Below, in pieces: positions 24,003-28,291 of a stretch of 37,629 nt of DNA. The number at the start of each line of letters is the position of its first letter. Position 1 is the stretch's first letter. This stretch comes from an uncultured Mollicutes bacterium (GTDB lineage: Bacteria > Bacillota_I > Bacilli_A > RF39 > UBA660), in NCBI GenBank assembly GCA_946500425.1, contig CAMMVQ010000011.1, positions 1 to 37,629 of the forward strand, written 5' to 3'. The position numbers and the translations under genes are program-made. Under the pieces are notes generated by a model, which was not told the DNA's origin, made no database searches, and worked only from the letters and a program-made list of their open reading frames with translations.

Positions 24003-24458
24003 TTATCTCTTACACCTTTCTATAAGTGGTCTTATTATTACGTTTTCCATTAAAACGTTCATTATACTAATAAATATTGAAACTATAATTGGTGAAAAAA
24101 ATCCGGTCAAATAAAAGTGTTTTCCTAAAATAAGGTTAACCAAAAGAAGAATGGCAACGTTTATAACAAAATAGAACAAACCTAACGACATTCCTATTAA
24201 TGGCATGGTTAGGGCAACTAAAACCGGCTTTATGGTTTTGTTTAGTATGTATATAATAATAGCTGCCAAAAAGCCATAAAATATATTCTCAACGTATAAA
24301 GACCTAAATAAGTTAGAAGTAATAATAAGAACTATAGCATAACCAAACATGTAAATTAACCACTCTAAAACCAGGTTTAGACGGTACTCTAGTCCTGTTC
24401 CTATGTTATTCTTAGAATTCTTCTTATTATTTTTATCGTTTACTACTATTACCTTCAT
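24003..24458 (-). CDS. YvlD-like membrane protein (phage-holin-4 family)
   Basis: The 151-residue protein has four hydrophobic helices after a short Lys/Asn-rich start. Segments such as RSLYVENIFYGFLAAIIIYILNKTIKPVLVALTMPL and GLFYFVINVAILLLVN match the YvlD/DUF360 family, also labelled phage holin 4 although it is a host gene. In Bacillus it lies by hprK and lgt; here lgt follows directly and hprK is missing. Function is unknown. Its ribosome site is a modest GGTGAT. Confidence 0.85.
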   Translation of the reverse strand: MKVIVVNDKNNKKNSKNNIGTGLEYRLNLVLEWLIYMFGYAIVLIITSNLFRSLYVENIFYGFLAAIIIYILNKTIKPVLVALTMPLIGMSLGLFYFVINVAILLLVNLILGKHFYLTGFFSPIIVSIFISIMNVLMENVIIRPLIERCKR

Positions 24459-24516
24459 AGTATCACCATTCTAATTATATCATAATGATATTAAAATATA
24501 TAATTAATTTTAAACG

Positions 24517-25470
24517 TTAAGATATTTTTTTATAAAAAGCTTTTGCGTTTTCAGATAAAATCTTTTGACTATCACTATAGTTCCAAACTGAACGAACTCT
24601 TTTTATAGAGCCATTATCCACGTTACCATTACCATCTAAGTTCCAGTTATAATCAACGTCAAACAATAGCTTATTAGGATTTACGTATTTTTTTAATAAA
24701 TTAAAGTATCCTTCTTTAAATAACCTTTCTTTACTTATTAGAACCTTAAAAGGGTCATTACTAATGTCCAAATCCGGGCCTATTCCAATCATTATATTAT
24801 CACTCTTATTTACTAACCTAATCGTATCTAAGTCTAAGCAAGCCCCATGATTTAAGACTCCTTTTAAACCATTTTTAATAAGAAAATCAGCCCAATTTAA
24901 AGGACTACACTTATTACGCCAATACTTAGTATCAACCCCATAACCATAGTCATAATTATAAACCGAAGTATGTAAAATAATTGGTAAATTAGCTTCTTTA
25001 AGAACTTCAATAATATCTTTGTTAACATCATCTGCGTAAAAACCACTAGCAAACCCATGGAATTTAACCGCTACCACATTTTCTTTTAAAAGCAGTTTAT
25101 AAACATAATTAGGGTCATCTAAAACACCATGAACTAAAGGTGCGAAATAAATTCTGACATTAGTTTTTGTTTTTGCTATTTCTTTTAAACAAAGATAATT
25201 AACTATTTCATAAGGATTATTAAATATCTCTTTTTTTATCTTCTTGTTTTTATTACTAGATATTTTATAATAGTGCATTAATTTATAATTTTCGTGCTCC
25301 CATATAAGACTTGCGACACTATTTCCTTCTTTTTCATAAACCGGCCATGGCATTGGCATTAAAATACCAGCGTCAATTCCGTTTCTGATGCAAAACTCAT
25401 CGTACGACTTAAGGGTTGATTCACCAAAATAATAATCTTTTCCTAAGTGACTATGACAATCAATAACCAT
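24517..25470 (-). CDS. amidohydrolase-fold (TIM-barrel) metal-dependent hydrolase
   Basis: The 317-residue protein belongs to the amidohydrolase_2 group. It opens with a metal-binding H-x-H in MVIDCHSHLG, then has a candidate lysine (VAVKFHGFA), a histidine in ILHTS, another in LNHGACLD and the metal Asp in LLFDVDYNW, so the usual metal-centre set seems complete. I chose the ATG at 25470, behind GGAGG; the frame extends nine codons upstream without homology. It is the last gene of the RiPP-type operon, 38 nt after the six-Cys peptide. A role in processing the modified peptide is only inferred from this position. Alternatives are a decarboxylase or unrelated hydrolase. Confidence 0.75.
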   Translation of the reverse strand: MVIDCHSHLGKDYYFGESTLKSYDEFCIRNGIDAGILMPMPWPVYEKEGNSVASLIWEHENYKLMHYYKISSNKNKKIKKEIFNNPYEIVNYLCLKEIAKTKTNVRIYFAPLVHGVLDDPNYVYKLLLKENVVAVKFHGFASGFYADDVNKDIIEVLKEANLPIILHTSVYNYDYGYGVDTKYWRNKCSPLNWADFLIKNGLKGVLNHGACLDLDTIRLVNKSDNIMIGIGPDLDISNDPFKVLISKERLFKEGYFNLLKKYVNPNKLLFDVDYNWNLDGNGNVDNGSIKRVRSVWNYSDSQKILSENAKAFYKKIS

Positions 25471-25482
25471 CTTTCCTCCACT

Positions 25483-25510
25483 AAAAAATAAAGGCAAAGG
25501 CCCTTATTTT
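25483..25510 (-). terminator. hairpin between peptide gene and amidohydrolase
   Basis: On the minus strand AAAATAAGG, a short loop and CCTTTATTTTTT form a stem with one bulged T and end in a T run, directly after the peptide stop. It could partly end transcription so that the peptide is made more than the hydrolase, or protect the 3' end. It is weak in GC, so this is a candidate only. Confidence 0.4.
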
Positions 25511-25688
25511 ATTTAGAATAAATTTCTTTTACTTCTTTTACGTTTTCGTTTTTATCCTTGCATCCTTTGCAAGTTGTATTGCAGGTTCCAACACCTCCCC
25601 CACAAGCACAACTATTACATACGGAAGCAGTAACATCAGCGTTAAAACTCAAAACACTCTTTACCTTGTTCTTATTTAAAGTAATCAT
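25509..25688 (-). CDS. six-cysteine RiPP precursor peptide candidate
   Basis: This 59-residue peptide lies between a radical SAM/SPASM maturase and an amidohydrolase. Residues 1-23 form a Cys-free leader (MITLNKNKVKSVLSFNADVT start). The core holds all six cysteines (24, 27, 29, 36, 40, 43) in the pattern C-x2-C-x-C-x6-C-x3-C-x2-C with a Gly-rich loop, and the tail is charged (Lys/Glu). The number and density of Cys and the Cys-Thr/Ser-rich core resemble SCIFF and other ranthipeptide precursors that receive thioether bridges. Its ATG overlaps the maturase stop (ATGA) behind a perfect GGAGGTGAT, so strong, coupled translation is expected. No signal peptide is seen. No function is known to me; the RiPP assignment is inferred from context and composition. 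Confidence 0.8.
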   Translation of the reverse strand: MITLNKNKVKSVLSFNADVTASVCNSCACGGGVGTCNTTCKGCKDKNENVKEVKEIYSK

Positions 25689-27034
25689 CCTATCACCTCC
25701 TTTTGCTTTGATTCTCTTTGCTTTTTAACCGTTATGTCATATCCTTTTATTAGAATCCAACGCAAGGATTCCTTCGTGTGGATACAAAACGGTTTATCTA
25801 TTTGATTACGGCTCATAAACAAACTTTCAGCCTGAATTGCACACCCTCCGCCACAAATAAATAACGCTTCACAATCTAAGCATTTTTTATTATTAAGGGT
25901 ATTTCTTTCTTTCCAAAACTTCATTTCGTCAGAGTTCAAAACATCCTTTATCGAAGTCTCTTTAATGTTTCCTATAACGTATTTATCTGTTTTTAAATAT
26001 CCATGGCAAACACATAAATCCCCATTTGGTTTCACCGTTATTTGGTTTCCACCAATAGCTCCGCAGTCAGAAAACTTAAATTCCTCGTTTAACATGCTAT
26101 CTATCTTTCTTATCAATCTTCCGTCATAAATGTTTTTTGAAGATAAACACTCGTATGATTTAATAAGAAAGCTACTAGCCCGCTTATAATACTCCTCCCA
26201 CTTATCATCATAGCTTGTATAATGATACAGATTATAAAATATACTTTTCACGTTCAGCTTCTTAAGCCAAGAAAGGACTTCATCTTGATGATCTAGGAAA
26301 TCATTTGAAACGGTAATAGATAATCCAAACTTACACTTTTCCATCTTTAACATTGGGAATTTCTTCATTACTTCATCATAAACGCTTTTTCCGCTTACGC
26401 GATAAACTCTATTTTTATCATTTAGTTCTTTTGGGCCGTCTATTGAAATTCCTACTTCTACTTTATGCTTTGCTAGAAATTTTATTTTGTCTAAATTTAG
26501 CAAGGTAGCGTTCGTTACCATCGAAAAATTAATTGGAGAATTTAACTCTTCGGCCTTGAGTAAAACTTCTTTTATAGTATTCCAATTAACTAATGGCTCA
26601 CCACCGTAGAAAATAACGGAGCCCTTAATGTTGTTTTCCCTTAAATAAGTATCATATTTTTTTAAAGCTAACAAAGCCGTATCTTTACTCATGTTAACTT
26701 CTTTTTTATTATTAAATTGACAATTTTCAACAAAACAATACTTACAAGCAAGGTTGCAGGAAGAACTCATTATAAGGTACATAATTTGTAATTTCCCACT
26801 TACCTTCTTATAACGGTTTTTTATCTGTTCCAAAGCACGGTTATCAACCCGTGAATCTTTAACGTAAATTCCTATGTTTTTCAAACTCTTCTTCTCATCA
26901 CCATCAACGGAAAAGCTTATGATATCATCCAGTTTTTTCTTGTCAACATAAACAACGTTCATAACAAGTGAGTTGTATACCGCGTATACATCCTCTTTGA
27001 TTTTTACCGCTTTAAAATATTTTGATAAAGTCAT
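25685..27034 (-). CDS. radical SAM/SPASM peptide maturase
   Basis: The 449-residue enzyme has an N-terminal region (about 1-85) of the kind seen in peptide maturases (SKYFKAVKI ... YAVYNSLVMNVVYV), which may bind the leader. The radical SAM core has the CxxxCxxC cluster motif C93, C97, C100, and the GGEP motif at 144-147. The SPASM domain shows C324 with G338 and C343 (CX9-15GX4C), then C385, C388, C394, C398 (CX2CX5CX3C) and a final C417. This is the complete layout of enzymes that form thioether or C-C links on RiPPs. The stop overlaps the peptide start. The ATG follows GGAGG, 1 nt after the GNAT gene. Confidence 0.92.
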   Translation of the reverse strand: MTLSKYFKAVKIKEDVYAVYNSLVMNVVYVDKKKLDDIISFSVDGDEKKSLKNIGIYVKDSRVDNRALEQIKNRYKKVSGKLQIMYLIMSSSCNLACKYCFVENCQFNNKKEVNMSKDTALLALKKYDTYLRENNIKGSVIFYGGEPLVNWNTIKEVLLKAEELNSPINFSMVTNATLLNLDKIKFLAKHKVEVGISIDGPKELNDKNRVYRVSGKSVYDEVMKKFPMLKMEKCKFGLSITVSNDFLDHQDEVLSWLKKLNVKSIFYNLYHYTSYDDKWEEYYKRASSFLIKSYECLSSKNIYDGRLIRKIDSMLNEEFKFSDCGAIGGNQITVKPNGDLCVCHGYLKTDKYVIGNIKETSIKDVLNSDEMKFWKERNTLNNKKCLDCEALFICGGGCAIQAESLFMSRNQIDKPFCIHTKESLRWILIKGYDITVKKQRESKQKEVIG

Positions 27035-27035
27035 T

Positions 27036-27491
27036 TTATTCCTCCAAAGAAATATTTTTTATAACTTTTACATCAGAAAAACCAAGTTTATCGTATAGCC
27101 TTACCGCCTCTTTGTTGTTTATACAAACCTTAAGTTCCGCGTACTTGGCATCGTTTTTTTTAGCCCAACTTTTAAACTCATTAATCAGTTTTGTCGCAAC
27201 GCCTTGTTTTCTTTTGTTTTCTACCACGTATATAGCATCTAGTGCGCAAACTTTATTAATGTATGAATCACCATTATTCACCATATATCCATATAAATAT
27301 CCTATTATGTCATCATCTTCTTTAGCGACCAAAAGACATACGTCATCGTTGTTATAAAACTTTTCATACATTGATTTTACAACGCAATTTTCATTGATGT
27401 TAGAATCGTATTCTTTCTCAGTGAGAATCAGTTTAGTTAATAATTTATTAGCTACTAACGCTTCATCATAATCAGCCCTTTTTATTTTCAT
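27036..27491 (-). CDS. GNAT-family N-acetyltransferase
   Basis: The 151-residue protein has the GNAT layout: strand CLLVAKEDDDIIGYLYGYMV, the beta4 segment KVCALDAIYVVENKRKQGVATKLI with acetyl-CoA pyrophosphate loop R-K-Q-G-V-A, and the C-terminal YAELKVCINNKEAVRLYDKLGFSDV. It is of RimI/aminoglycoside-like general type; the substrate is unknown. It precedes the maturase by 1 nt, so it may acetylate the peptide or protect the producer, both being inference. The ATG has GGAGG. Confidence 0.9.
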   Translation of the reverse strand: MKIKRADYDEALVANKLLTKLILTEKEYDSNINENCVVKSMYEKFYNNDDVCLLVAKEDDDIIGYLYGYMVNNGDSYINKVCALDAIYVVENKRKQGVATKLINEFKSWAKKNDAKYAELKVCINNKEAVRLYDKLGFSDVKVIKNISLEE

Positions 27492-27508
27492 GGTTCCTCC
27501 TTAAAACG

Positions 27509-27517
27509 ATTATAACA
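27509..27517 (-). promoter_or_regulatory. extended -10 promoter of the RiPP-type operon
   Basis: On the minus strand TGTTATAAT (TATAAT at 27509-27514) lies 17 bases upstream of the GNAT ATG; no good -35 is seen. If used, it gives the operon a start independent of the ArpU-like genes and a very short leader holding the GGAGG. Confidence 0.5.
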
Positions 27518-27523
27518 GGTACC

Positions 27524-27718
27524 CTAAATAGATTTATGTCTATAATTGTTGCCTATTTTAGTATGTACTTCATAAGATTCATCTTCGACTATTACGTGGG
27601 AATACTTTTTAAGCAAATCCATGTTTATAACTTCTTTTCCGGTAACATCATAAAGTTTTCCTTTTTTTCTTATGAAAATTAAATAATTAGGGTACATGTT
27701 CTTAATTCTTTCTATCAT
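27524..27718 (-). CDS. hypothetical 64-residue protein
   Basis: It starts with a clean GGAGG site and overlaps the end of the ArpU-like gene by 17 bp, so the two are coupled. The sequence is a small Lys/Tyr-rich product (YLIFIRKKGKLYDVTGKEVINMDLL), with a predicted beta hairpin and helix and no transmembrane helix or Cys. I do not recognise it. Confidence 0.55.
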   Translation of the reverse strand: MIERIKNMYPNYLIFIRKKGKLYDVTGKEVINMDLLKKYSHVIVEDESYEVHTKIGNNYRHKSI

Positions 27719-28124
27719 CTTTTTCCTCCACTCCTAAAGAAAAAGCAAATCTTATTAAGGTTTCCTTTTTCTTTATGTAATAATATCCAAGAGAAAATCC
27801 TAAATTATTCGCTATAAAACGGTCATCATAATTATTTTCCTTATCAAAGTACGTCCAGTAAACGATTTTTCTTTCATCACTAGTAAGTTTATTAAACGAA
27901 GACCTAACGTAGTTAATAAAATCCGCTCTATTTTTTAACTCTTCAACGTTTACTTTCATGTACGGATTTTCCGCTGTTTCAAAATATATTTTATCTAAAA
28001 TAAAATCATTACTAATTGAAGAGATGCCGTTATCGACCGATAAAGTATAATAATTATATTTAGTTATTATTTCTTCAACGTTTTTCTTTGTTTTAGACCA
28101 AGATATGTTTTTAGGTTGAACCAT
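27702..28124 (-). CDS. ArpU-like transcriptional regulator (sigma-region-4 fold)
   Basis: The 140-residue protein has an N-terminal polar part and a C-terminal helix-turn-helix. Its signature is KLTSDERKIVYWTYFDKENNYDDRFIANNLGFSLGYYYIKKKETLIRFAFSLGVE, as in ArpU-type phage late-gene or packaging regulators. I place the start at the ATG at 28124 with GGGAG 8 nt upstream; the frame extends 23 codons farther with no homology. Its presence may signal a prophage remnant or a domesticated regulator. It sits about 0.2 kb upstream of the RiPP-type operon and may control it, which is inference. Confidence 0.65.
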   Translation of the reverse strand: MVQPKNISWSKTKKNVEEIITKYNYYTLSVDNGISSISNDFILDKIYFETAENPYMKVNVEELKNRADFINYVRSSFNKLTSDERKIVYWTYFDKENNYDDRFIANNLGFSLGYYYIKKKETLIRFAFSLGVEEKDDRKN

Positions 28125-28291
28125 TGTAACAGCTCCCTTCTTATGACATTGTATCATTTTACTCAAACTAAAAGTTAATTTTAAAATAATCAATAATTCA
28201 TAAAAAAATAAGCTAAAACTAATATTATCTTCATGTATATTATTATCTAAAAATGGTTTTAACCCTTAAAAAAAGCATAGGTTTTTAACAC

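Follow-up and report, generated by a model that had tools for sequence, protein, structure and literature searches.

The window, the whole stretch of 37,629 nucleotides analysed here, comes from a draft genome of 1.2 Mb (50 contigs) and shows a compact four-gene operon which very probably makes a modified six-Cys peptide by means of a radical enzyme. At a probability of about 0.7, this is a RiPP locus whose product is a thioether-bridged peptide with a fixed core, and in which the hydrolase represents a dedicated processing step. A RiPP-type operon, as proposed in an earlier note on this DNA, is supported by the conserved linkage of the genes in eight genomes, the predicted RRE-like domain of the maturase and the purifying selection on the peptide. 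Also counted in favour were the absence of the genes as a block, the matches to CteB and TigE, the Cys-rich peptides beside related maturases, the peptide profiles and a hydrolase found only with the locus. Counted against were the lack of an exporter or peptidase in the locus, the other chemistries of radical SAM/SPASM enzymes and the near-fixed core, which is unusual for a bacteriocin. We infer that the maturase acts on the peptide, and likewise the thioether chemistry, the substrate of the hydrolase and the role of the product.

The operon and its precursor peptide

The operon covers positions 24517-27491 on the minus strand and shows the order GNAT, radical SAM/SPASM maturase, 59-aa six-Cys peptide and amidohydrolase-fold protein (Table 1). 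The genes are separated by 1 nt, a 4-nt overlap and 38 nt, in agreement with the earlier description, and a Shine-Dalgarno match is found ahead of each of the four starts. The 317 aa of the hydrolase are counted from its ATG; the TTG listed at 25497 is an in-frame start upstream. Promoter and terminator scans gave nothing above shuffles. No gene encoding an exporter or a peptidase lies within the locus, and a C39-peptidase exporter is encoded elsewhere in the window genome.

Table 1. Features of the operon, in window positions.
Feature	Position	Strand	Basis
GNAT acetyltransferase, 151 aa	27036..27491	-	PF00583, 65.4 bits; loosely attached member
Radical SAM/SPASM maturase with predicted RRE-like N-terminal domain, 449 aa	25685..27034	-	PF04055 and PF13186 above gathering cut-off
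Precursor peptide, 59 aa	25509..25688	-	8-copy alignment, codon variation, Shine-Dalgarno AAGGAGGTG
Near-invariant core of the peptide, residues 21-46 (ASVCNSCACGGGVGTCNTTCKGCKDK)	25551..25628	-	alignment
Amidohydrolase-superfamily metallohydrolase (predicted), 317 aa	24517..25470	-	model, structural match, invariant ligand residues

Upstream of the operon, positions 27702-28193 contain a gene encoding an ArpU-like sigma-type regulator. In each genome of the genus that was checked and has the site on a single contig, this gene comes next after uvrA, whether the operon is there or not; it is missing beside the two operon copies located elsewhere (L028 and L029) and was therefore ruled out as a member of the system. 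After the ArpU-like gene there is a 64-aa ORF (27524-27718), which probably encodes a real small protein, because G008 and G007 have counterparts of about 50% identity at the corresponding position.

The cysteines of the peptide show the spacing C-x2-C-x-C-x6-C-x3-C-x2-C, as the earlier note had read it. Its frame is the single stop-to-stop frame in the whole window with six Cys within 20 residues, and 0.017 such frames are expected from first-order Markov simulations of the window. The Shine-Dalgarno sequence and start are AAAGGAGGTGATAGG-ATG, and AAGGAGGTG precedes the peptide in the six copies inspected (6/6). In the alignment of eight copies, residues 1-20 (the leader) vary freely, the core, with the consensus ASVC-[NS]-SCACGGG-xx-[ST]-CNTTCKGCKDK, is nearly fixed, and V53, Y57 and K59 are conserved in the tail that follows. 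The switch from variable to invariant positions occurs at residue 21, which is a plausible processing border between leader and core.

The peptide is real, as its core is near-fixed in eight copies while 24 of its 27 codons vary, 19 of these only synonymously. Relative to the window copy, core and tail show a dN of 0.08-0.16 and a dS of 0.8-2.1, i.e. a dN/dS of about 0.06-0.10 with synonymous sites close to saturation. Judged from these substitutions, the peptide is translated and strong purifying selection acts on it; the core behaves as a single fixed product rather than as a diversifying bacteriocin. The core contains no aromatic residues, and D45 is the only Asp or Glu adjoining its cysteines.

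None of the NCBIfam models matches the peptide at E values up to 10, nor do the Pfam models. The SCIFF precursor model TIGR03973 (ScfA) leaves the window peptide unmatched, and TIGR04135 (cut-off 45 bits) matches neither the window peptide nor that of L028; the Ruminococcus-type peptides score 87-93 bits on this model. A profile of the eight peptides scores 35.0 against seven sister peptides and 30.5 against four long FibroRumin precursors, and the best of 60 column-shuffled controls, which preserve the Cys content, reach 17.5 and 16.8, respectively. Common descent of the window, sister-clade and long FibroRumin peptides is likely rather than proven, because the peptides are short and Cys-rich. 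Homologues of the peptide beside related maturases, for which the earlier note had advised a search, are found in all eight loci.

The maturase and its relatives

The maturase shows the radical SAM motif C93-x3-C97-x2-C100 and a complete set of SPASM cysteines (C324, C343, C385-x2-C388-x5-C394-x3-C398 and C417), in line with the full motif sets described in the earlier note. In its model (pLDDT 91), three strands and three helices precede the radical SAM barrel. The best full-length structural match is CteB (5wgg; Z 33.3, model residues 4-435, 404 aligned, 3.4 A), and TigE matches over residues 1-436 (Z 31.5). The model predicts the same full architecture as in CteB, a ranthipeptide maturase, with RRE-like, radical SAM and SPASM parts. 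The general features of a RiPP radical SAM/SPASM enzyme are thus present: CxxxCxxC, the SPASM Cys set, the predicted RRE-like domain and an adjacent peptide in 8/8 copies. Maturases 30-43% identical to that of the window are also mostly found near small Cys-rich peptides.

Among the NCBIfam families, FibroRumin (TIGR04136) ranks first with 226.1 bits (cut-off 400; 231 bits for the L028 copy), and PapB (NF047865) second with 178.7 bits (cut-off 340). The maturase scores 135 bits on DynA, 129.1 on the SCIFF maturase ScfB (TIGR03974, cut-off 425) and 104 on YhhB, and the quinohemoprotein maturase model gives a good score too. In the gene tree, the eight operon maturases form one clade (support 99/98), adjoining a Bacilli/Clostridia clade (joined at 93/86) and also a clade of gut Alphaproteobacteria, and all three are separate from FibroRumin (100/100). 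True FibroRumin enzymes in the same tree score 406-975 bits on TIGR04136, and the window clade and the two sister clades 185-231. Identity with the FibroRumin equivalog is ruled out by this cut-off and by a precursor without a TIGR04135 match, and identity with the SCIFF maturase by the TIGR03974 cut-off. Membership in SCIFF was therefore not upheld, the peptide also lacking a match to any NCBIfam precursor, while the suggestion of a distinct subtype gains support from a maturase in a clade of its own.

The window locus resembles FibroRumin loci (TIGR04136/TIGR04135) in its top-scoring curated maturase family and in the small Cys-rich precursors, and the long FibroRumin precursor type (e.g. 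CNSCACGRCSGCISQCTGCK in L063) resembles the window core CNSCACGGGVGTCNTTCKGCK. It differs in the maturase score and clade and in a peptide unrecognised by TIGR04135. FibroRumin loci have one or more precursors before the maturase, whereas the window precursor follows it, and the hydrolase and the GNAT are additions. SCIFF/ScfB ranthipeptides (CteA/CteB) share the short six-Cys peptide and the maturase fold, but differ in maturase score, precursor match and gene order; the amidohydrolase and the accessory occurrence within the genus also set the window locus apart. PapB/freyrasin, the second-best curated family, has a known thioether chemistry (PMC9413430). It differs in that the window maturase is under its cut-off and in that the window core, except for D45, has no Asp or Glu beside the cysteines.

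The sister Bacilli/Clostridia loci (L030-L036, L040) show a precursor, with the core NQCTCSNCNCNC, directly behind a maturase 38-42% identical to that of the window; the core is another one, and the partners are methyltransferases, not a hydrolase and a GNAT. In L034:680-3773 (also in L030 and L036, and partly in L033, L035 and L040), a gene encoding an RlmA-like 23S rRNA guanine-N1 methyltransferase (134 bits on NF008300, cut-off 303) directly precedes the maturase and the NQCTCSNCNCNC peptide. A second class I methyltransferase is usually also directly before the sister maturase. For a RiPP locus, an adjoining rRNA methyltransferase would be in keeping with a product that targets the ribosome and a producer that protects itself. 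In gut Alphaproteobacteria (L031:5042-7314, L037:3725-5944 and L039:5094-7323), a related maturase lies behind a Cys-rich peptide of 54-59 aa and a protein of 234-240 aa; the two of these proteins that were scanned (L031 and L037) gave no significant hit to Pfam or NCBIfam. Sister loci decay in some lineages, to judge from the transposase-like genes that interrupt the loci at L036:7299-9054 and L047:6824-8113: one splits the maturase from the peptide and one is found where the maturase is truncated.

Radical SAM/SPASM enzymes also form C-C and ether links and introduce other changes. The window maturase might modify the peptide in such a way without thioethers, the cysteines staying free, e.g. 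for metal or for disulfides. SPASM maturases include the cyclophane- and dynobactin-type enzymes, on whose side are the DynA and YhhB scores, and the spacings C-x2-C-x-C and C-x3-C-x2-C resemble metal-binding ones. We consider this unlikely: PapB is next after FibroRumin and the SCIFF and quinohemoprotein maturases score well, all of them thioether formers, CteB is the best full-length structural match, and most cyclophane formers use an aromatic residue, which the core lacks.

The hydrolase, the acetyltransferase and the distribution of the locus

The hydrolase scores 15.8 bits on PF04909 (Amidohydro_2), under the gathering cut-off of 26.4, and its other copies score 14.6 or 16.3 or are unmatched; a sequence search of solved structures gave zero relatives. 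Its model (pLDDT 84, with a poor stretch at 174-179) is an eight-strand barrel. The best structural match among those listed is the amidohydrolase 3cjp (Z 21.0), and the matches listed (Z 18-21) include PF04909-type hydrolases and decarboxylases. The residues H6, H8, K136, H167, H208 and D271 are unchanged in the eight copies, and in the model H6/H8, K136, H167, H208 and D271 are located at the ends of barrel strands 1, 4, 5, 6 and 8. HxH, K, H, H and D are the usual metal-ligand set of the amidohydrolase superfamily. The model thus shows both the (beta/alpha)8 barrel and the ligand set at strand ends expected of this superfamily, with metal binding predicted, and the enzyme is probably active because these residues are invariant and so placed.

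Within the genus, the hydrolase is present in 6/18 genomes, precisely the six that contain the operon. It was found in none of 392 genomes of the phylum beyond the window genome, nor on plasmids. As it occurs in no searched genome without the locus, the hydrolase is, by its distribution, dedicated to it. For an amidohydrolase with such a tie to a RiPP locus there is a precedent in PurAH, which removes the bottromycin follower peptide (PMC10885120). The likeness to BotAH/PurAH drawn here is one of role. PurAH is thiazoline-specific, and the window locus has no azoline-forming enzyme. PurAH/BotAH are absent among the best 50 structural matches listed for the hydrolase, which excludes nothing. 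Tentatively, release of the product may need a new class of RiPP processing, with an amidohydrolase-fold enzyme that cleaves at the tail or at a residue bearing a thioether, by a PurAH-like logic of separate origin, although we hold this to be doubtful. Instead of maturation, the hydrolase might serve immunity or turnover by breaking down the finished product inside the producer; such an enzyme would also be dedicated to the locus and lost together with it, and no other immunity gene is visible there. We give this a low probability, as the hydrolase is the last gene of a tight operon, directly behind the precursor, as is often seen with processing enzymes, and the fixed core is unlike an arms-race antibiotic.

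The operon was searched for in 59 relatives and in GTDB contigs. Eight uncultured gut Bacilli (the window genome and seven further) contain the four genes in the same order: six have the operon at the uvrA/yvlD site and two, of other lineages, elsewhere. L002-L006 (loci L023-L027) belong to the genus of the window and show the order uvrA, ArpU-like gene, operon, yvlD and lgt. L028 (from goat; genome G298, of another genus) and L029 (an isolate named Lapin, so from rabbit) have the unit at other places with different neighbours, and on this comparison the four-gene unit moved or was inherited as one whole. The conserved region between uvrA and yvlD-lgt described in the earlier note holds for the surroundings within the genus, whereas the operon they enclose is an accessory element (6/18 genomes). 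Peptide, maturase and hydrolase are jointly missing from 12/18 genomes, and this block absence is seen in sister genomes with the flanks intact.

The uvrA-yvlD interval (window 24003-28193; L133-L142, L179 and L180) is a variable slot of the genus between constant flanks. It shows three states: the full operon, the GNAT alone (G002, G004 and G014), or neither, i.e. a small ORF or nothing. A peptide search in 395 genomes drawn evenly from the class found the window genome only, the other operon genomes being outside the draw, and the peptide was not found in viral contigs. The closest maturase relative on plasmids is 32% identical and belongs to a Campylobacter plasmid, where it is annotated as FibroRumin. 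An SsuA/taurine-type ABC transporter lies on the opposite strand near the operon in L029 (2852-5370) and near the sister loci in L030 (9246-10593) and L036 (9117-10641); this shared neighbourhood may be due to chance or to a common insertion site.

The GNAT scores 52.1 bits on the RimI model TIGR01575 (cut-off 86.4), and another gene of the window genome scores 90.6 bits and is a proper RimI; both results rule out RimI for the operon gene. Its score on the HaaN-type RiPP acetyltransferase model (27.5 bits against 250) is uninformative. The place given to the GNAT in the operon stands in so far as it is present in 8/8 copies with the order kept. Its core membership is weakened, since members of its family turn up in 25/291 genomes of the taxonomic family, most of them lacking the other three genes. 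A tree of the GNATs places the lone copy of G014 inside the group of the operon copies L002, L003 and L005 (100/98), and this nesting fits a block loss of the other three genes. G298 contains an additional, closely related lone copy. Since the family is often alone, even at the operon's own site, the GNAT is best read from its distribution as a frequent companion and looser partner, not as a proven step. That both GNAT and hydrolase are chance neighbours sharing a promoter, with a system of peptide and maturase only, is the least probable reading and a very improbable one: GNAT relatives are alone at the site in three sister genomes and many genomes have them without the locus, but the hydrolase is linked in 8/8 copies at three unrelated genome places and in none without the locus, and the GNAT keeps its place in all copies.

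Proposed pathway and meaning for the host

Under the preferred reading of a thioether-bridged RiPP, the ribosome would make the 59-aa peptide, and the maturase would bind it through the RRE-like N-terminal domain. With its radical SAM and SPASM iron-sulfur clusters, the maturase would connect sulfurs of cysteines in the SCACGGG...CNTTCKGC core with carbon atoms of residues nearby. In ranthipeptides the Cys sulfur is bound to a non-alpha carbon, in sactipeptides to an alpha carbon. Candidate acceptors among the last three Cys are Asn37, Thr38 and Thr39, by comparison with SCIFF, where Thr is the acceptor, and NxxcA, where Asn is. Known links made by the radical route are Cys to Thr in CteB, Cys to Asn in NxxcA and Cys to Asp in freyrasin (PMC8326336). 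In the literature searched there is no paper on FibroRumin, on TIGR04136/TIGR04135 or on an amidohydrolase with a ranthipeptide; because FibroRumin chemistry is unreported there, thioether formation is proposed by analogy with CteB and PapB. The amidohydrolase would then act on the modified peptide, most simply by cutting off the leader or else the conserved tail, or by opening one specific bond, and the product set free in this step would have a fixed structure. For the GNAT, capping of an exposed amine is a possible, though not obligatory, task, and release through the C39 exporter encoded elsewhere in the genome is speculation.

Radical SAM loci for Cys-rich RiPPs are an already known kind of system, among which this locus is unusual in its fixed core and its dedicated hydrolase. 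New, as far as sequence comparison goes, are a precursor family unrecognised by Pfam and NCBIfam and a maturase clade beside FibroRumin. A dedicated, predicted metal-dependent hydrolase is not otherwise seen with such peptides. The hosts are uncultured gut Bacilli with reduced genomes, in which a fixed peptide product has to justify its upkeep, and a single genus offers a natural comparison between full sites, sites with the GNAT alone and empty ones.
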